Notes under the pieces: model-generated | Database searches by the model: none | Told to the model about the DNA's origin: nothing | Seen by the model: the letters and a program-made list of their open reading frames with translations, nothing else | Source of the DNA: a virus | IMG/VR virus record: IMGVR_UViG_3300033148_003042 | Coordinates: 1-20,191 of that record | DNA: 20,191 nucleotides | Reading direction: 5' to 3' (one strand) | In this document: positions 5,437-17,419 of the stretch, piece by piece | Layout of the letters: each line of letters opens with the position of its first letter | Position numbering within the stretch: position 1 is the first letter of the stretch | Made by a program: the position numbers and the translations under genes

Positions 5437-6405
5437 CTATGGGGTTGTCGTAGTCTTTTCTCCAACGTGGTCAGTATTCGCAAGTCTCCTTGCAATAGCT
5501 TCTAGATTTCCCTCTCGAGATAATCTAACAAGCCTTTCTCTGTCTTCTGTTGGTTCAGACTGTGGTCGAGCCGGTGGTTGTTGTCCTGCCGTATCGGCAG
5601 CCGCCTGTTCTTTCAGTGCTTGAGCAGCATCAACTGGTGTTGTTGCGTCTCCTGCGACTGGTGTAGCGGGAGCTCCTTCTGGAGCCGCTGTTGTTGTAGT
5701 TGGTTCAGTCACGTCTGTTTTGACTTCTTTAGATGATTGCGCGTTTTTAACGTAGTCGGCTGCTTCTTTGAAATGCATTGGTCTCCCACCGTAGTCTTCT
5801 GGTGATGTCATAGAATCAATCAGAACTGACCTAACTTGTCTGTGAAATTCTTTATCATGAGTATCTGACTGAGGATTCAGTTCAGGATACGTAGAGAAAG
5901 TCTCTCTGTTTTGTCGGTCAATATCTTTTGCTTCTGACGTTTTGATGTAGCTCTGTACCGCTCTTTGAGCGTTGGTTGCTTGTGTATTAAGGGCCTCAAT
6001 CTTATCTTTAAGTTTGATTTCATTAATAAACTTTTGACCTGTTACAGGGTCTATCTCAACAAAATCCTCTGGATTTACTTTATCTTGAGCTTGAGACTGT
6101 ACTGGTGGTTGGTTCAATGGACTAACTTGTTCGTTTGCTTCTTCTCTCCTCTGTTGAGCATCCAATAGAGACTTATTTGCCTCCATTAGTTCTTTATTAG
6201 AATCAAGCAGTTTGTCAAACTGTTCTGTCGTCCTTTTATTTTCTGTATTTATTGTTGGCTTACTAGGTGCTGCCGGTGCTGGTGTAGCTGAAACTGCTGG
6301 TGCCGCTGGTGTAGCTGGTACCGCAGGAGCTGTTTTAGCTGGAGCAGGAATAGTAGCTGCCTTTTTAGAAGCGTCCTTTACGGGCGCGTTATCTTTGGTT
6401 GCCAA
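5437..6405 (-). CDS. Scaffolding protein
   Basis: A 322-residue protein with a low-complexity Ala/Pro/Thr N-terminus (about residues 5-50), a charged helical middle rich in Gln/Glu (EQFDKLLDSNKELMEANKSL, likely coiled coil), a second Ala/Thr/Pro linker near 245-285, and a charged end (EDRERLVRLSREGNLEAIA). This composition and its place directly before the capsid gene are typical of phage scaffolds, which guide head assembly and then leave. The start is a TTG at 6405: AAGGAGGTG lies 7 nt before it and no ATG fits. The family was not matched by a specific motif; the call relies on composition and context. Confidence 0.8.
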   Translation of the reverse strand: MATKDNAPVKDASKKAATIPAPAKTAPAVPATPAAPAVSATPAPAAPSKPTINTENKRTTEQFDKLLDSNKELMEANKSLLDAQQRREEANEQVSPLNQPPVQSQAQDKVNPEDFVEIDPVTGQKFINEIKLKDKIEALNTQATNAQRAVQSYIKTSEAKDIDRQNRETFSTYPELNPQSDTHDKEFHRQVRSVLIDSMTSPEDYGGRPMHFKEAADYVKNAQSSKEVKTDVTEPTTTTAAPEGAPATPVAGDATTPVDAAQALKEQAAADTAGQQPPARPQSEPTEDRERLVRLSREGNLEAIARRLANTDHVGEKTTTTP

Positions 6406-7181: not shown

Positions 7182-9350
7182 TTAACCAGTAGGACTTTTA
7201 CTATATTGGTCCTGTATCTGTTTTAAATATTTTGGATTTGGTTGACCAAGATTCTGGTCTTTTGGCTCATCTGGTTTACTTAATCCAGGCATAGTTTTCG
7301 CTAATTGATTAGCACCCTGTCCATCTCCCATTTCTTGAGATTCACCCTGTCCTTTTCCACCAAACATACTCATAATATCTTGTTCTTGACCTGGTGCTCC
7401 ACCTGGTGCTCCACCTGATGTTTCCTCGAAGTATTTTCCAGCGTCACCGAAACCAAGGTCTTCCAACCATGTGACAAATAGCTCTTTAAATTTAGGTTTA
7501 ACTCCCTCTTGTTGTAATAGGGCCAATAAATTGGGATTAGACACAAGTAGGGAAACAGCAGTTTGTCGACCCTGTCTCTTTTCCTCATCTGCACTTACAG
7601 TCATAGACTCAACATCAACTGAAAAGTCGAAGTTACCTCTTAAATCCTCTGGTTCAATATGAAGTTCACCATATAGACCATCATCCTCTTTTTTAAACTT
7701 TGGTATCAAATTAATATTACCATCTTTACTATTGTTTACAGGATACTTAGGAATGGTTAAACCCTTTCCTTCTGTAGCTTCGGACAACTCCTTAAGGTCA
7801 AGTCCAAGAATCTCAGACTGTTTCTTTAATAGTTGTACGGTAACATCTTCTATTTCTTCATCTCCAAGTCCTTTTCCTATAAAATAATCCAAAGCATCTT
7901 TCCCAACTATTCGAATCGTATAAAACTTCTTCTCTGGGTCTGTAAAGATAAGCTTTTGATTCATCATGTGCCACAACATCATCTGTCTCTTAATAGCGTC
8001 TGCCAACATTAATTGATTATAATTGTCTCTAGCGTTCCTCTGTAGTTGCAAGGCTTTAACCTCTGTAGCGGTCTTATCCTGTGAAAATGGTCTCATGTTT
8101 GAAACACCTAGAGATGTTTCTCCCAGGGCGTTCATCATAGCCGCGACCAAAACAGAATAAGTGTTATTGAAGTATTGAGCAGCGTTTGACTTTGATTCAA
8201 CCAGTCTAAAGTCAGTTAAAGGGTTGCTCATTATCCATCGAGCACCCTTACCCCACTCAAGCGTATGTTGTTTCACTCCTGGACCAACAGCAATAGGAGA
8301 ATACAGATTTTGATTAATTTCATCGACATATTGACATAAAAGAGCGTTAATAGCCTTCTGAAGACCCTTAACTGGCTCAATTTCTGATAAACCATACAAA
8401 TCATCATCTATCACATAGTATCTAAGCATTACTATAGGCAGTTCGTAGTTTTCGTATGGATTTGGAATGTCTCTCAAGATAATTCCGTGTTGGGGAGCAA
8501 AAGTAATCCATCTATCCTTCCTATATTCAGTACAAATCTCAACAGTTTTAAAAACAAGGTCTTTAGACATTGGGTCACTCTCTAAGCCAGAAATTTCTCT
8601 ATTCTTTGACCTCCAATTAGTATCTCTTGAATCTCCGGTACCACCCTTTTCAGACTCTGTTCCTATGGAATCCCTTAAGGTAGCAATGTTTTTATAAATT
8701 GGCTTTTCTCTCGCATGGTCGTTAACTCTTTCTAGTTCTTGCATGGTGACATATTTCCTCACCTGAATCCAATTACAGCTTTCTATAGATGTAGCCGTCA
8801 TGTCGTGCGCAACATCCCTATTATTCAAAATCTCCATGTCTGGACCATCAAAAACAACCTTGCCTTTTCCGTCCAACTCATATCTCCATTTATGCAAAGC
8901 AAATGATGCCCCATATTTGCGAGCATTAATATCCATCAGCGCCCACTTCTGCAACATGGTTCCACCACGAGTAGCATTGTCCCACTGATAATCTAGTAAA
9001 GCATTGTTAACTTTTGCGGCCAACATATCTCCGCCTTCCCTAGGAATAAGTCTTCCCTTAGGTTTACTAGCAATCAAACGTGAAGTTTTCTCAAAAATGA
9101 AAGTGAAAATACGTGGGTCAAATAAAAGAGCATCATATGGCCAACTGTCTTCATCCAAATGAGACCTAAATAATTCATCAGCCTCATCAAATGAAATTGA
9201 ACCTATTCTACCAGAACCGGTAGCCCTTCTCTCTGTCTCATCAAAACCATCTTGGTAATGTCTATGAGCTTCGTCCCAAGCCAACTCTTCTTTTCTCTTT
9301 GTTGCAGAAAGGTCAGCGTCTATTTGTTTTTTTGTCTTTTTCTTTGCCAT
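7182..9350 (-). CDS. Portal protein
   Basis: A 722-residue protein forming, by inference, the dodecameric DNA channel at one vertex of the head. It has a basic start (MAKKKTKKQID), a conserved-looking early region (LLFDPRIFTFIFEKTSRLIA), a central stem/wing region with PNPYENYELPIVMLRYYVID and KGLQKAINALLCQYVDEINQ, and a Gly/Pro/Gln-rich low-complexity tail with tandem GGAPGGAPG near residue 653. Length and layout fit the large portals of podovirus- or SU10-like phages. It lies downstream of terminase and upstream of scaffold, the usual order. The ATG at 9350 has no Shine-Dalgarno site; the 46-nt spacer before it is AT-rich. Confidence 0.85.
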   Translation of the reverse strand: MAKKKTKKQIDADLSATKRKEELAWDEAHRHYQDGFDETERRATGSGRIGSISFDEADELFRSHLDEDSWPYDALLFDPRIFTFIFEKTSRLIASKPKGRLIPREGGDMLAAKVNNALLDYQWDNATRGGTMLQKWALMDINARKYGASFALHKWRYELDGKGKVVFDGPDMEILNNRDVAHDMTATSIESCNWIQVRKYVTMQELERVNDHAREKPIYKNIATLRDSIGTESEKGGTGDSRDTNWRSKNREISGLESDPMSKDLVFKTVEICTEYRKDRWITFAPQHGIILRDIPNPYENYELPIVMLRYYVIDDDLYGLSEIEPVKGLQKAINALLCQYVDEINQNLYSPIAVGPGVKQHTLEWGKGARWIMSNPLTDFRLVESKSNAAQYFNNTYSVLVAAMMNALGETSLGVSNMRPFSQDKTATEVKALQLQRNARDNYNQLMLADAIKRQMMLWHMMNQKLIFTDPEKKFYTIRIVGKDALDYFIGKGLGDEEIEDVTVQLLKKQSEILGLDLKELSEATEGKGLTIPKYPVNNSKDGNINLIPKFKKEDDGLYGELHIEPEDLRGNFDFSVDVESMTVSADEEKRQGRQTAVSLLVSNPNLLALLQQEGVKPKFKELFVTWLEDLGFGDAGKYFEETSGGAPGGAPGQEQDIMSMFGGKGQGESQEMGDGQGANQLAKTMPGLSKPDEPKDQNLGQPNPKYLKQIQDQYSKSPTG

Positions 9351-9396
9351 GGTCTATTGTTCTAGGTTATCAAGCTAATTGGTATGTAGTCTAGGG

Positions 9397-9760: not shown

Positions 9761-10456
9761 CTATTTAAATCTCCATTTTTCTCTATGAGCCCTCATTCTT
9801 TCTGGTTCAAACTCACCAAAGTCGGTATCTGGAGTAACTTGAGCTATTTGCCAAGCCCCCGCGCTCGCCATAACCAAGTCATCATGTCTCTTAGCTTTCG
9901 CCTGCGCGCGACCTTTAACTATCACAAATGATTTTAACTGACCAATTTGCTCTTTGTCGTACATTTTTAACTTACCCTGTTTAATAGCTAGAGCCAAGTC
10001 GTCAAGCATTTTTCGTCTTGTACCCTTTAATTCTCCTCCAGAGATGTGTCCTGTAGTAACCCAACCGATTTGTCCCTTCTCATGGGTTTGTCCAGAAGCG
10101 AAGTCAACCATTCTAAACATGTCTGGATAATTATTTTGTTGTAGCACAAAGATTGTAGCCTGACCAGTGTTTCTTTCGACCGCAAGTTTAGGCCACAAGT
10201 TGGTCCTTGTTTGAACATATTTGCCTATGTTATGAAGTTCATATCCAAACTGAGAAGATTCCATCACCTCATTAAATACTATAGGAAAATCAAAATGCTT
10301 CTTGCTAAAACAAACCGCAGCACAGAAATCCTGAGAATCAGCTGGGTCAGCAAACATCACTAGCTGTTCATTTATATCTAGCTTACGATATACCCTGCAC
10401 GGATATTTCTCACTCGCTACGTATGGATTTATTATGTCTTCTTTTTTATCTGTCAT
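9761..10456 (-). CDS. terL: Terminase large subunit, nuclease part (separate gene)
   Basis: A 231-residue protein matching the C-terminal RuvC/RNase H-like nuclease of large terminases, which cuts the DNA concatemer during packaging. Visible motifs are LVMFADPADSQDF (first acidic residue D37), KLAVERNTGQA (E94) and KRHDDLVMASAGAW (D192/D193). It is not fused to the ATPase: the ATPase gene stops at 10453 and this one starts at 10456 (ATGA). The N-terminal 30 residues look like linker, so the nuclease domain seems whole. There is no separate ribosome site, so it likely relies on re-initiation after the ATPase stop. Confidence 0.85.
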   Translation of the reverse strand: MTDKKEDIINPYVASEKYPCRVYRKLDINEQLVMFADPADSQDFCAAVCFSKKHFDFPIVFNEVMESSQFGYELHNIGKYVQTRTNLWPKLAVERNTGQATIFVLQQNNYPDMFRMVDFASGQTHEKGQIGWVTTGHISGGELKGTRRKMLDDLALAIKQGKLKMYDKEQIGQLKSFVIVKGRAQAKAKRHDDLVMASAGAWQIAQVTPDTDFGEFEPERMRAHREKWRFK

Positions 10457-11346
10457 CGTGCTGAGGTCTGGAACGAAAAGTGTCCATCTGGTAATATGAT
10501 TCCGAATTCTTCCGGTATAGTGGCATCTTTTAACATTTTGTTTAACTTGGCTACATCAAAGTAAGGAGAGCCAGACGTGATAAACGCCTCTTCTGGGGTA
10601 CTTGGATACTCCTGCATCCACATCTGGTCTGTTGGGAACTCCAGTCTCTTCTTCTCCACCCATTCTTTTGTGTAAAATTCTTGCCATCCAAAGAACCTTG
10701 TAGTATAAGAGCTTTTCCCCTCTTCAGCCCTAAGCCACTCTGAATGATAAAAATTACCCTCACCATTAGCAGTAGATTCAATAAAAATCATTCCCCTATC
10801 TTGGGGAACCTGCTGTGAAGTGGCCAAGATGATTTCCTCCGCAGTAATAAGCTCAGTGTCTTGGTAAAAGGCGCCCTCAGAGAAATGGACGTTCCTGGCA
10901 GAACCACCACGACCTCCGACCTTAGTACCAGCCGTACCAATGTAGAACATTGCGTTATTGGTAGCGTTTTCTAACATGTTTTTACTATCGGTCTTTAAAA
11001 GCTTATCCATGTCCAACCCGTTCTTTTCGCAATAGGACTCCAAATAAAACTTTACTTTCTTAAATAAAAGTTCTGTAGCATCTTTCCTATGGGATATACA
11101 GATGGAGATAGAATATGGTCTGAACAAAAAATCTACCGCAAAGAGGGCCAAGATAAGAGAAGAAAAACCTTGCTGTCTGGCTTTTAAAATAATATCACGA
11201 ATACCATCCATGTGCGGTGTCTCTTTAAGTAAAACTTTCATGTATTTCTTCTGCACCTTATTTAACTTAAATGGAACAGGAACCTGATTCTCACGGTCCA
11301 ATACCTCAAAATTTTCTTCTATGAAATTAACGTAATCAATCTTCAT
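10453..11346 (-). CDS. terL: Terminase large subunit, ATPase part (separate gene)
   Basis: A 297-residue protein with the packaging-motor ATPase domain only. It shows an adenine/Walker A region (KARQQGFSSLILALFAVD, residues 55-72), a Walker B-like RNVHFSEGAF (151-160) and a coupling motif IFIESTANGEGNFY (187-200), then EYPSTPEEAFITSGSPYFD, which ends the ATPase domain in fused terminases. The protein stops soon after, where the nuclease would begin; that part is the next gene. Start: ATG at 11346 with GAGAGG upstream, overlapping the TerS gene by 11 nt. Each half has its expected motifs, so this looks like a functional split rather than decay. Confidence 0.88.
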   Translation of the reverse strand: MKIDYVNFIEENFEVLDRENQVPVPFKLNKVQKKYMKVLLKETPHMDGIRDIILKARQQGFSSLILALFAVDFLFRPYSISICISHRKDATELLFKKVKFYLESYCEKNGLDMDKLLKTDSKNMLENATNNAMFYIGTAGTKVGGRGGSARNVHFSEGAFYQDTELITAEEIILATSQQVPQDRGMIFIESTANGEGNFYHSEWLRAEEGKSSYTTRFFGWQEFYTKEWVEKKRLEFPTDQMWMQEYPSTPEEAFITSGSPYFDVAKLNKMLKDATIPEEFGIILPDGHFSFQTSAR

Positions 11347-12272: not shown

Positions 12273-12405
12273 TGTTTATTGGTTCATTAATAATGCGCCG
12301 AACCGCGTGACGAATGAACTCCGAACGATTGTAAGAATTTATCTTACAAAAGGAGTCTATCTCTGCCAACAATAAATCGGGAAGGCTGATAATAATTTTT
12401 GCCAT
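12217..12405 (-). CDS. Ribbon-helix-helix DNA-binding protein (62 aa)
   Basis: From the ATG at 12405 the protein reads MAKIIISLPDLLLAEIDSFC, then INSYNRSEFIRHAVRRII: one short beta strand followed by two helices, the classic Arc/CopG/MetJ ribbon-helix-helix pattern. It should bind DNA as a dimer through the paired strands and act as a repressor. The frame extends upstream to 12462, but that part would overlap the promoter and has no ribosome site. It is the first gene behind a strong promoter that precedes the packaging and head genes, next to a tandem 9-bp repeat and a 20-bp palindrome, so it may control its own operon. The Lys-rich tail overlaps the next gene. Confidence 0.85.
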   Translation of the reverse strand: MAKIIISLPDLLLAEIDSFCKINSYNRSEFIRHAVRRIINEPINNVQKNKIKASKEKKGSFN

Positions 12406-12411
12406 ACATAA

Positions 12412-12441
12412 ACTATATATAGCTAAAACATCATTTGTCAA
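12412..12441 (-). promoter_or_regulatory. Leaderless promoter of the RHH/morphogenesis operon
   Basis: TTGACA (12436-12441), 18-bp spacer, TATAGT (12412-12417); TATATA at 12414-12419 with a 16-bp spacer is an alternative. Six bases separate TATAGT from the ATG at 12405, so the usual +1 position falls on the A of the start codon. Confidence 0.75.
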
Positions 12442-12443
12442 TA

Positions 12444-12461
12444 CAAAGCCCACAAAGCCCA
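12444..12461 (-). repeat. Tandem 9-bp repeat upstream of the -35 box
   Basis: Two perfect, adjacent copies of TGGGCTTTG (transcribed strand) end 2 bp before the TTGACA of the RHH promoter. Spacing and position fit an operator for a dimeric ribbon-helix-helix protein, which often binds tandem direct repeats. Confidence 0.6.
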
Positions 12462-12483
12462 CCGCGCGTGCAAGAAAAGAAGC

Positions 12484-12503
12484 TTTGTTAATTAATTAAC
12501 AAA
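12484..12503. promoter_or_regulatory. Perfect 20-bp palindrome
   Basis: TTTGTTAATT followed by AATTAACAAA, fully self-complementary, lies between the stop at 12509 and the RHH promoter. It could be an operator or, less likely, a weak AT-rich terminator; the base run after it is not a clean T-tract. Confidence 0.5.
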
Positions 12504-12508
12504 CGGCG

Positions 12509-12781
12509 CTAGCATTCCTCGTACCCAGGATGGGTTTTCTGGGCTCTTTTTTCTTCAATATTGACAATTATCTTTGCAACTGCAATCAACATGTTGTTGA
12601 AGACAGAATCTTTTCTTTCCTCCATGGTTTCATCATCCATGTTAATAATAGAAGATACAATTTTTTTCATAAGTTTACCAGCCGGGCTCTTTTCATTCAA
12701 GTGATTAAAGATGTGATGCATTACTCTATCAGTAACATCAGGTGTTTTCTTTTCACAGAGTGGGCAGGTTATTTCTTTCAT
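12509..12781 (-). CDS. Zinc-finger protein (90 aa)
   Basis: Starts MKEITCPLCEKKTPDVTDRV, then MHHIFNHLNEKSP: CxxC followed by paired His residues in a helix, the C2H2 zinc-finger pattern. The rest is helical and charged (DDETMEERKDSVFNNMLIAV). It likely binds nucleic acid or a protein partner. It stands alone between two promoters: its own, which would give a leaderless mRNA, and the one for the RHH operon. No ribosome site precedes the ATG at 12781. Confidence 0.8.
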   Translation of the reverse strand: MKEITCPLCEKKTPDVTDRVMHHIFNHLNEKSPAGKLMKKIVSSIINMDDETMEERKDSVFNNMLIAVAKIIVNIEEKRAQKTHPGYEEC

Positions 12782-12787
12782 AGTTAT

Positions 12788-12816
12788 AATTTACCACTAA
12801 CTACAAGCCATGTCAA
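12788..12816 (-). promoter_or_regulatory. Leaderless promoter of the zinc-finger gene
   Basis: TTGACA (12811-12816) begins directly after the upstream stop codon; 17-bp spacer, then TAAATT (12788-12793, 4 of 6 consensus). Six bases separate it from the ATG at 12781. Confidence 0.6.
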
Positions 12817-12999
12817 CTATCTGTTGTAGTCATACCAAATAATAAACTCTATAGTATCTTTTGCCTTCCTCATATCCAAGTTCCTATTTTTTCTATTTTC
12901 GAACTTCAGCTTATAATTATGAATGGTTCTTCTGTCTACCATAAAATATTCAGCTATTTCTGTTAGACTAATTCTCTTTACTCTTTGCACATCTTTCAT
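12817..12999 (-). CDS. Small HTH protein (60 aa)
   Basis: Residues 9-35 (RISLTEIAEYFMVDRRTIHN and following YKLKF) form a clear helix-turn-helix: a first helix, a turn with VDRR, and a recognition helix TIHNYKLKFE. The rest is charged and ends FIIWYDYNR. It resembles small phage regulators or the DNA-binding part of small terminases. It overlaps the HExxH gene by ATGA (12996-12999) and is co-transcribed with it. The next gene has its own promoter starting at the base after this stop. Confidence 0.75.
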   Translation of the reverse strand: MKDVQRVKRISLTEIAEYFMVDRRTIHNYKLKFENRKNRNLDMRKAKDTIEFIIWYDYNR

Positions 13000-15613: not shown

Positions 15614-15796
15614 TTAAAATATCAAAGCAAGAATTATCCAAACAATACCAACCGGAACCAATATCGGACTTATTATAAAAATCAAGATAGATAAGAGAAA
15701 TAGCGCTAGAATAAAAAATAGCAACATTAAAAACGGTAAAATAAATATACAGGCCAACAAATGAGCTAGAAATGGTGTTTTTTCTTTTGTTTTCAT
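15614..15796 (-). CDS. Small hydrophobic membrane protein (60 aa)
   Basis: After MKTKEKTPFLAHLL the sequence is almost wholly hydrophobic (LPFLMLLFFILALFLLSILI and on to IVWIILALIF), giving two spans. The ATG at 15796 lies 6 nt after the T-tract of a strong terminator and has no ribosome site, so expression would depend on readthrough or another promoter. It leads a row of three tiny membrane genes, a possible lysis module, though no endolysin is visible in the window. Confidence 0.6.
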   Translation of the reverse strand: MKTKEKTPFLAHLLACIFILPFLMLLFFILALFLLSILIFIISPILVPVGIVWIILALIF

Positions 15797-15802
15797 TGTT
15801 CT

Positions 15803-15899
15803 AAAAAAAGCGAGGCGGAGATGAATTAAATGTGTGGGATACGAGTAGGGGTTTAAGCCTACAGAGTTATCACCTCCTTTGGTGTGTTTTGTCCGCCTC
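15803..15899 (-). ncRNA. Candidate small RNA with super-Shine-Dalgarno
   Basis: A perfect promoter would start transcription near 15899, exactly at the 5' arm of a 9-bp stem (CGAGGCGGA/TCCGCCTCG, 15892-15900 with 15811-15819) whose 3' arm is followed by seven T's. The result would be a ~97-nt RNA closed end to end by its terminator helix. Inside are AAAGGAGGTGAT (15869-15880), fully complementary to the 16S tail ATCACCTCCTTT, and GTAGG/CCTAC, a second stem. The super-SD lies in a short CACC/GGTG hairpin with AAAGGA in the loop. No ATG, GTG or TTG follows at a usable distance. It matches no RNA family known to me; it could also be an attenuator leader for 15614-15796. Confidence 0.6.
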
Positions 15900-15900
15900 G
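15803..15900 (-). terminator. Intrinsic terminator with a distant 5' arm
   Basis: The GC-rich 9-bp stem is followed by C and seven T's (15803-15809). The two arms are 72 nt apart, which is long for a classic terminator, and the 5' arm coincides with the predicted transcription start. Confidence 0.65.
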
Positions 15901-15905
15901 TCTTG

Positions 15906-15935
15906 ATTATAATATAATACAGATGGTTTTGTCAA
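15906..15935 (-). promoter_or_regulatory. Consensus sigma70 promoter
   Basis: TTGACA (15930-15935), 18-bp spacer, TATAAT (15906-15911): both boxes perfect. It lies one base after the stop of the DUF5320-like gene and drives the candidate small RNA. Confidence 0.85.
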
Positions 15936-15936
15936 G

Positions 15937-16080
15937 TTACTTTTTTTTCTTCCCTCTTAATCTTCCCAGTCCTTTTTTAAATCTATCTCCGAACTTTTGT
16001 CCTAATTTCTTGCAAGGACCGAAACCCCTACCTGTTAATGGTCCTTTTCCTTTTGGACCTGTTTTGTTTTGTTTTGGCAT
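15937..16080 (-). CDS. DUF5320-like small Gly/Lys-rich protein (47 aa)
   Basis: Reads MPKQNKTGPKGKGPLTGRGF then GPCKKLGQKFGDRFKKGLGR and a poly-Lys end. The GPxGxGPxTGRGxGxC pattern near the start is the one I know from DUF5320-type proteins of archaea and uncultured bacteria. It is highly basic and may bind nucleic acid or a metal. It has a strong ribosome site (AAAGGGGTG, 8 nt before the ATG) and its own promoter, so it is probably well expressed. The short length fits the family; function is unknown in general. Confidence 0.75.
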   Translation of the reverse strand: MPKQNKTGPKGKGPLTGRGFGPCKKLGQKFGDRFKKGLGRLRGKKKK

Positions 16081-16161: not shown

Positions 16162-16254
16162 TTACTTGCTTTTACAAAACAAAAAAAAGAACATTAAGGT
16201 TGTGATAAGCCCCAGTAGTGTTCCCGCCAATAAAATTTGCCAAAAATAGGTCAT
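16162..16254 (-). CDS. Tiny membrane protein (30 aa)
   Basis: Reads MTYFWQILLAGTLLGLITTL then MFFFLFCKSK: a single hydrophobic span with a basic end. The ATG follows directly on the TAA of the preceding gene (GATAAATG) and uses the repeated cassette (copy with AAAAGAT, a weaker ribosome site). Function unknown. Confidence 0.6.
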   Translation of the reverse strand: MTYFWQILLAGTLLGLITTLMFFFLFCKSK

Positions 16255-16488
16255 TTATCTTTTGTGTTTAGTAATTTTAATATCTAACATTTTTCCTCTT
16301 TCTACAAGGTCAGACCTGCAAAACTTGTCATACTCAGCTAAAGACTTTCCAACAGATTTTTTAATCTTTCCATCTTCAAAACCAAACAACCAAGATAATG
16401 AATTCTTTGTTTTCATACCAAGTTTCTTCTCAAGTACATCTAAGCAGTTAATTAAGTCTATTGTTTCTGATAGTGTTAATTTCTTCAT
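16255..16488 (-). CDS. Hypothetical protein (77 aa)
   Basis: Reads MKKLTLSETIDLINCLDVLE then a charged centre (SWLFGFEDGKIKKSVGKSL) and ends ITKHKR, which is encoded by the repeat cassette. It looks like a small soluble alpha/beta protein; no family is recognised. Its start uses a cassette copy, and its own end forms the next one. Confidence 0.7.
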   Translation of the reverse strand: MKKLTLSETIDLINCLDVLEKKLGMKTKNSLSWLFGFEDGKIKKSVGKSLAEYDKFCRSDLVERGKMLDIKITKHKR

Positions 16489-16501
16489 CTATCTTTTGTG
16501 T

Positions 16502-16888
16502 TTAGTAATTCCTTATTCTCGTGCTGTCTTTATAAATATTGCCGATTATTTCAAACTTTCCTCTACTCATTCCTTTGTGTAATTTCCAAGAACCCCAGTC
16601 TTTATCCCATTTGACAACACAAGTCGTTTTAATAGGTCTGTTTCGGTAATAAGCCCCTCCATTATCAGGACAGATAAATTCCTTCTTAATCCAAGTATTT
16701 GTTAAAATATCCCCCTCGTATATCTCCTTACCATTCTTGTCCTTTAAGCCTGTGTATTGTAAAAATACAACATATTCGCTTTCTTCTAATAACTCATTTA
16801 GTCCTTCAGTATTTCCCTCAAGTGGTCGGTTGCAACCAATCATCTCCTTACTCTTTTTTAACCAAGCTTTGAATTTAATTTGTTTCAT
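16502..16888 (-). CDS. YopX-family protein (128 aa)
   Basis: Carries the family signature VFLQYTGLKDKNGKEIYEGD (residues 41-60) and TCVVKWDKDWGSWKL, followed by FEIIGNIYKD, all typical of the YopX group found in Firmicutes phages. Its biochemical role is unknown in the family. Start from a cassette copy with the good AAAGGAT site. The N-terminus MKQIKFKAWLKKSKEMIG also fits, as family members usually begin with a FRAWD-like segment. It ends RIRNY at the TAA inside the next cassette copy. Confidence 0.85.
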   Translation of the reverse strand: MKQIKFKAWLKKSKEMIGCNRPLEGNTEGLNELLEESEYVVFLQYTGLKDKNGKEIYEGDILTNTWIKKEFICPDNGGAYYRNRPIKTTCVVKWDKDWGSWKLHKGMSRGKFEIIGNIYKDSTRIRNY

Positions 16889-17053
16889 CTATCCTTTGTG
16901 TTTAGTAATAGGTTTTTTATTTTGTAACCATTTTTTTATATTCTCACGACCTCTTTCAAGGTTCTTTTGGCAATTCTTACAATCACGGTGATTTTCAGCT
17001 ATCAAATGTTGTGGATACCATCTAGTGTGTGCTAAACATCCGTTTATGCTCAT
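16889..17053 (-). CDS. Small Cys/His protein (54 aa)
   Basis: Reads MSINGCLAHTRWYPQHLIAE then NHRDCKNCQKNLERGRENIK and ends KPITKHKG, encoded by the repeat. C6/H9 and CKNC at 25-28 could bind one zinc. It overlaps the upstream gene as ATGA and starts from the shortened cassette copy. Function unknown. Confidence 0.65.
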   Translation of the reverse strand: MSINGCLAHTRWYPQHLIAENHRDCKNCQKNLERGRENIKKWLQNKKPITKHKG

Positions 17054-17226
17054 CTATCCTTTGTGTTTAACCATTCAATAAAAGTTTCTATGTCTGTGTT
17101 CTTATGTAAATGACCCCACCTTTCTCCCGTTTTCTCGTATTCCTTTGCACACCACTTGATACTTGAGTCATTGTCTTCGTTTGTTTCTTTGACAAACTTC
17201 TTAAATAGTTTGATTAAGTCTTTCAT
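17050..17226 (-). CDS. Hypothetical protein (58 aa)
   Basis: Reads MKDLIKLFKKFVKETNEDND then SSIKWCAKEYEKTGERWGHL and ends EWLNTKDR. The end is encoded by the shortened cassette read in a different frame from its neighbours, with TGA overlapping the next ATG. Soluble and charged; no family recognised. Start from a cassette copy with AAAGGAT. Confidence 0.65.
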   Translation of the reverse strand: MKDLIKLFKKFVKETNEDNDSSIKWCAKEYEKTGERWGHLHKNTDIETFIEWLNTKDR

Positions 17227-17239
17227 TTATCCTTTGTGT

Positions 17240-17398
17240 TTAGTAATCATCTTTTCCAATTATATATCCGAGAAACGCAGGGAGAATAAACAACAACATC
17301 ATCACGAACTTAATCCACAGTTCATCTGGTTTTGTAGTTACAGAAAAGAACATTGTTGTTATGAACACTGTTAATATTATTATTGCTGTTATCTTCAT
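17240..17398 (-). CDS. Small two-span membrane protein (52 aa)
   Basis: Reads MKITAIIILTVFITTMFFSV then a short polar loop (TTKPDELWIKF) and a second span (VMMLLFILPAFLGYIIGKDD). Two transmembrane helices. It ends at the TAA inside the next cassette copy and starts from the first copy. Function unknown. Confidence 0.65.
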   Translation of the reverse strand: MKITAIIILTVFITTMFFSVTTKPDELWIKFVMMLLFILPAFLGYIIGKDDY

Positions 17399-17419
17399 CT
17401 ATCCTTTGTGTTTAGTAAT

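Follow-up and report, generated by a model that had tools for sequence, protein, structure and literature searches.

A short noncoding RNA of ~97 nt, whose first bases would pair with its last, is predicted on the minus strand of the window, by which we mean the whole stretch of viral DNA analysed (20,191 nucleotides; positions 1 to 20,191 of IMG/VR record IMGVR_UViG_3300033148_003042). An end-paired, discrete RNA of this length is the best reading of the signals at the locus, and we regard it with moderate confidence as the product of an orphan phage small-RNA gene of a kind already known. If the RNA is made, it would add a clear example of an sRNA gene from a virus infecting uncultured bacteria, with a terminator that is at the same time the closing helix of the RNA.

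The window comes from the genome of a tailed phage that encodes an SU10-type capsid protein (Pfam PF17236), a terminase and a portal protein, and all recognisable genes of the window lie on the minus strand. A 46-kb IMG/VR contig (IMGVR_UViG_3300033143_002284) represents the same virus, with 99.9-100% identity over the aligned parts, and the RNA region is unchanged between the two assemblies. A host search with the capsid protein against 84,980 genomes gave distant matches only.

Promoter, closing helix and terminator signals delimit a predicted short RNA

The features of the locus and its flanking genes, all on the minus strand, are listed in the direction of transcription.

15937-16080 (-), gene for a 47-aa DUF5320 protein (MPKQNKTGPKGKGPLTGRGFGPC...), upstream of the RNA and with an SD
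15930-15935 (-), -35 hexamer TTGACA (promoter scan)
15906-15911 (-), -10 hexamer TATAAT, 18-nt spacer (promoter scan)
15803-15899 (-), predicted discrete RNA of ~97 nt (start placed by promoter spacing; fold z = -3.9)
15892-15900 (-), 5' arm of the closing helix, CGAGGCGGA (fold)
15871-15884 (-), small hairpin CACC-AAAGGA-GGTG that leaves the SD partly exposed (in one of two folds of nearly equal energy)
15869-15880 (-), AAAGGAGGTGAT, perfect complement of the typical 16S 3' tail (exact sequence match)
15859-15864 (-), CTG-TAG start-stop, the sole ATG-like near-start at SD distance, 8 nt (sequence)
15845-15862 (-), hairpin GTAGG-CTTAAACC-CCTAC (fold)
15811-15819 (-), 3' arm of the closing helix and terminator, TCCGCCTCG (fold)
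15803-15809 (-), T7 tract of the intrinsic terminator (sequence)
15614-15796 (-), 60-aa hydrophobic ORF, candidate read-through gene (ATG 6 nt past the T tract; lacks its own SD and promoter)

The promoter, TTGACA-18-TATAAT, is perfect, as the original prediction had it, matching at 12 of 12 positions, and is one of two such sites within the window. The predicted start (~15899) coincides with the first bases of CGAGGCGGA, which is perfectly complementary to TCCGCCTCG, and the two arms form a 9-bp GC-rich helix closing a 72-nt loop. This helix doubles as the terminator and is followed directly by a C and seven T's (15810-15803); all parts of the predicted arrangement, with the start on the first arm and the T tract behind the second, are thus present. 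Promoter and closing helix (with the T tract) scored 25 together at this site, compared to a best score of 22 in 300 order-1 Markov shuffles of the window. Large-loop helices without a promoter were not clearly rarer in shuffles at the same score, and therefore only the combination of promoter and helix is significant. The fold energy of the RNA is -26.6 kcal/mol (z = -3.9), better than in 200 of 200 shuffles. A promoter and terminator of its own, together with the lack of a translatable ORF at SD distance, are properties expected of a phage intergenic sRNA, and these signals support well the earlier proposal of a discrete small RNA.

From the signals, the fold and the synteny described below, we infer transcription, stability and a possible function as follows. 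The consensus promoter would start an RNA of ~97 nt with its first bases pairing with its last, and the closing helix with U7 would act as terminator, leaving the RNA short, noncoding and protected at both ends. It would most likely be a trans-acting small RNA, either regulatory or protein-binding, encoded in an accessory-gene region whose content appears to turn over rapidly. The SD-like 12-mer would be a copy of the ordinary ribosome-binding site (RBS) word of the virus family, and the conserved purpose of the RNA is probably something other than ribosome pairing. The 60-aa membrane ORF, which begins 6 nt downstream, may be expressed through some read-through.

A similar architecture lies beside the exonuclease gene in two relatives

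The neighbouring exonuclease is common to three relatives (85-87% identity). Two of them, L004 and L005 (= L037), in which its identity to the window is 85%, carry a promoter (TTGACA-17-TAAAAC) and a terminator-closed RNA upstream of the exonuclease (L037 9280-9185, minus strand; fold z -3.8). The sequence of this syntenic RNA could not be aligned with that of the window RNA, and AAAGGAGGTGAT is absent from it; in the third relative no similar RNA was found in the 1.5 kb at hand. Because the RNAs of the two relatives are identical to each other, the syntenic support amounts to one independent case. The original prediction had proposed conservation of helix and SD as a check. The architecture recurs at the locus in this one case and the SD does not, which suggests that the architecture, and not 30S capture, is the conserved thing, if any.

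An ATG is located 5 nt past the T tract of the syntenic RNA, nearly the same distance as in the window (6 nt). Such spacing bears on a simpler option, in which the RNA is the attenuator leader of the downstream small membrane genes, where the closing helix would end most transcripts and an event in the loop (a 30S subunit at the SD, or a ligand) would permit read-through. An ORF lacking a clear SD lies 5-6 nt past the T tract both in this virus and at the syntenic RNA of its two relatives, the frame of the 60-aa ORF stays open back through the leader, and the SD can pair with the start of the 3' arm in an alternative helix of 8 bp. However, the resulting fold is less stable by 3 kcal/mol and retains most of the closing helix, the downstream genes in the two cases are not recognisably related, and compact phage genomes place ATGs beside terminators anyway. 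The locus shares with attenuator leaders the order of promoter, structured leader, terminator and ORF, but differs from them in its 72-nt terminator loop, the apparent lack of a competitive antiterminator and a downstream gene that is not conserved. We consider attenuation unlikely.

The 60-aa membrane ORF was also compared to the membrane ORF beside the relatives' RNA. Their identity is 35%, but shuffling the hydrophobic part gave at least as good a score in 95 of 2000 cases, and we do not claim homology.

The Shine-Dalgarno word is common to the virus family

The 12-nt super-SD claimed for the enclosed loop is exact, with a chance expectation for AAAGGAGGTGAT of 0.01 per shuffled window. Its complementarity holds for the last 12 bases of 16S rRNA in typical bacteria, which may differ from those of the host. 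The SD had also been placed within a small hairpin, and this was confirmed in part. The CACC-AAAGGA-GGTG hairpin forms in a fold of -26.5 kcal/mol, but a rival fold in which GGTGAT pairs elsewhere is almost equal (-26.6 kcal/mol). AAAGGA is mostly open, and GG and the G of GGTG are paired in both folds. Opening the 12-mer costs ~7 kcal/mol, compared to ~-19 kcal/mol gained by pairing with the 16S tail of typical bacteria (that of the host may differ), and net pairing with such a tail is still favourable despite the partial folding.

As had been noted earlier, no start codon follows the SD at a useful distance. No ATG, GTG or TTG occurs 0-15 nt past GGAGG in the RNA, and the only near-start is a CTG 8 nt past the SD with TAG directly after it.

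In the virus family, 42 non-redundant copies of AAGGAGGTGA were counted, 35 of them directly before an ORF of at least 30 codons. The remaining seven are the copy in the RNA studied here, about four in leaders of capsid genes (where the spacer is longer or the gene interrupted), one at a terminase gene and one where a holin-like ORF begins. The RNA thus holds the only copy without any gene, the others being at or near gene starts. By this distribution AAGGAGGTGA is the ordinary ribosome-binding word of the phage family, and its presence in the RNA therefore needs no special explanation. Pairing of AAGGAGGTGA with 16S rRNA is thereby possible, but the copies show the sequence to be shared throughout the virus group.

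A word of this kind could also be left over, along with promoter and terminator, from a small gene since lost, which would make the locus a non-functional remnant. The identity of the 12-mer with the family's RBS word and the fast-changing set of tiny genes in this region are consistent with such decay, but every signal is intact, the two arms are perfectly complementary, the frames after the SD contain no obvious decayed gene, and a similar RNA is found at the same place in relatives. This makes a remnant quite unlikely.

Leaderless genes and the proposed capture of 30S subunits

The phage was predicted to use leaderless mRNAs, and rightly so: six promoters that match at 10 of 12 positions or better (TTGACA-16/18-TAnnnT) lie 6-7 nt before an ATG.

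Near 12405, 12781, 13581, 14317, 18826 and 19265 of the window (-), starts of leaderless genes (promoter spacing to ATG)

The original prediction went on to suggest that a super-SD without a start codon could capture 30S subunits or otherwise retune translation, which would favour the leaderless phage mRNAs. The exact 12-mer with its favourable duplex energy, the six strong leaderless promoters and the lack of a usable start other than CTG-TAG agree with this proposal. In the remaining evidence it found no support: the syntenic RNA lacks the super-SD, the 12-mer is partly paired and its opening must be paid for, the word is the family's standard RBS, and no other viral contig has a super-SD in a noncoding RNA, so far as the scans of IMG/VR made here go (for the helix scan, among the matches listed). 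The virus's own late genes begin with almost the same strong SD, and a 30S trap would therefore tax them as well. The stoichiometry of an RNA decoy against the ribosome pool is also demanding. We find a decoy of this kind very unlikely, and the present evidence does not call for 30S capture. Its most specific form, in which an end-protecting helix and a maximal SD with a CUG-UAG start-stop would hold initiating 30S subunits and shift translation to leaderless mRNAs, is likewise very unlikely. Capture of 30S subunits, if real, would be a translation-takeover device made of RNA only, in a virus with both leaderless and SD-led genes.

Homologue searches and known parallels

Rfam gave no match at the gathering score, and a relaxed search gave chance-level matches only. 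Near and distant DNA searches of phages and plasmids found no homologue of the RNA. Across these searches and the scans that follow, no homologue turned up beyond the virus itself. Motif scans of 2.9 million viral contigs (IMG/VR), run with the core, with the helix and with the combination of promoter, SD and T tract, found no second noncoding RNA of the same kind (for the helix, among the matches listed). Other matches to the exact core CCAAAGGAGGTGATAAC look coding or unrelated, those to the same terminal helix with a variable loop were, among the matches listed, chance matches, and those to TATAAT with a super-SD and T6 resemble either coding sequence or the usual leaders of genes. In a search for antisense targets on the 46-kb contig, three ten-mer matches were found compared to a shuffled mean of 4.4, which is below chance.

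The nearest known parallels to the putative orphan sRNA are two ncRNAs of phage PhiKZ and, for a coding-poor RNA with an SD that ties up translation, the bar minigenes of phage lambda. Lambda bar contains an AUG with a two-codon ORF and acts via peptidyl-tRNA, whereas the RNA described here has CUG-UAG after its SD and no AUG. Bar RNAs (Hernandez-Sanchez 1998 and Ontiveros 1997, as cited in PMC8012679) are likewise short phage RNAs that carry an SD and almost no coding sequence, and either could in principle tie up translation. The PhiKZ ncRNAs were recovered by Grad-seq, one intergenic (~100 nt, PHIKZ298/297) and the other from the p40 5'UTR, the latter thought to stop short of the next gene's start codon and found partly in 30S fractions (PMC8545117). 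Like the RNA described here, they are about 100-180 nt long, intergenic or 5'-UTR, with two-stem folds and no ORF behind a strong SD. They differ in that their transcripts have been detected, whereas ours is predicted from sequence signals, and in that the passages of PMC8545117 devoted to them report no super-SD and describe no closing helix. DicF and c4 type sRNAs are likewise small phage-derived noncoding RNAs, and DicF has a terminator-like structure, but both pair with known mRNAs (reviewed in PMC12197685), and for the RNA described here the target search found none.

Other RNA and gene-junction features

A second RNA hairpin of ~100 nt was observed at 12430-12562 (-) of the window, 12489-12592 (-) of relative L050 and 5964-6070 (-) of L037, between the gene at 12509-12781 and the gene for an RHH protein. 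Its fold z values in the three relatives are -3.8, -6.6 and -5.8; the arm sequences differ yet pair, and the ACGC side is kept. This hairpin is better conserved than the ~97-nt RNA.

Six copies of TTACTAAACACAAAGGATAGATG, with up to 3 mismatches, are located at gene junctions in the window (16252-17418, minus strand), where each ends one gene and starts the next. A different junction sequence, AAAATTAAGAGCTTATGAA, is repeated in four copies in L050. The arrangement is similar in principle to that of start-associated sequences in cluster K mycobacteriophages (PMC3203893).

Three stretches of the window (9075-9391, 2418-2567 and 2944-2992) are absent from the otherwise identical 46-kb contig. 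They lie within or beside the portal and glycosyltransferase genes and represent an assembly gap or a strain difference.

The large terminase of the window (9761-11346, minus strand) is split into two overlapping ORFs, an ATPase part and a nuclease part, and both parts are found across the virus family. Among the relatives, the terminase gene is interrupted by inserts in L038, L052 and L056, and the capsid gene in L041, L049, L050 and L057. The inserts are roughly 0.7-1.3 kb long, and some have a leaderless ORF of their own; those that were searched for Rfam introns gave no match.

In L073, at 12813-12930 (+), a promoter is followed by interleaved perfect helices of 9 bp and 13 bp (AACCGTCAG/CTGACGGTT and ACACAAAACCCAT/ATGGGTTTTGTGT), forming a pseudoknot-like RNA.
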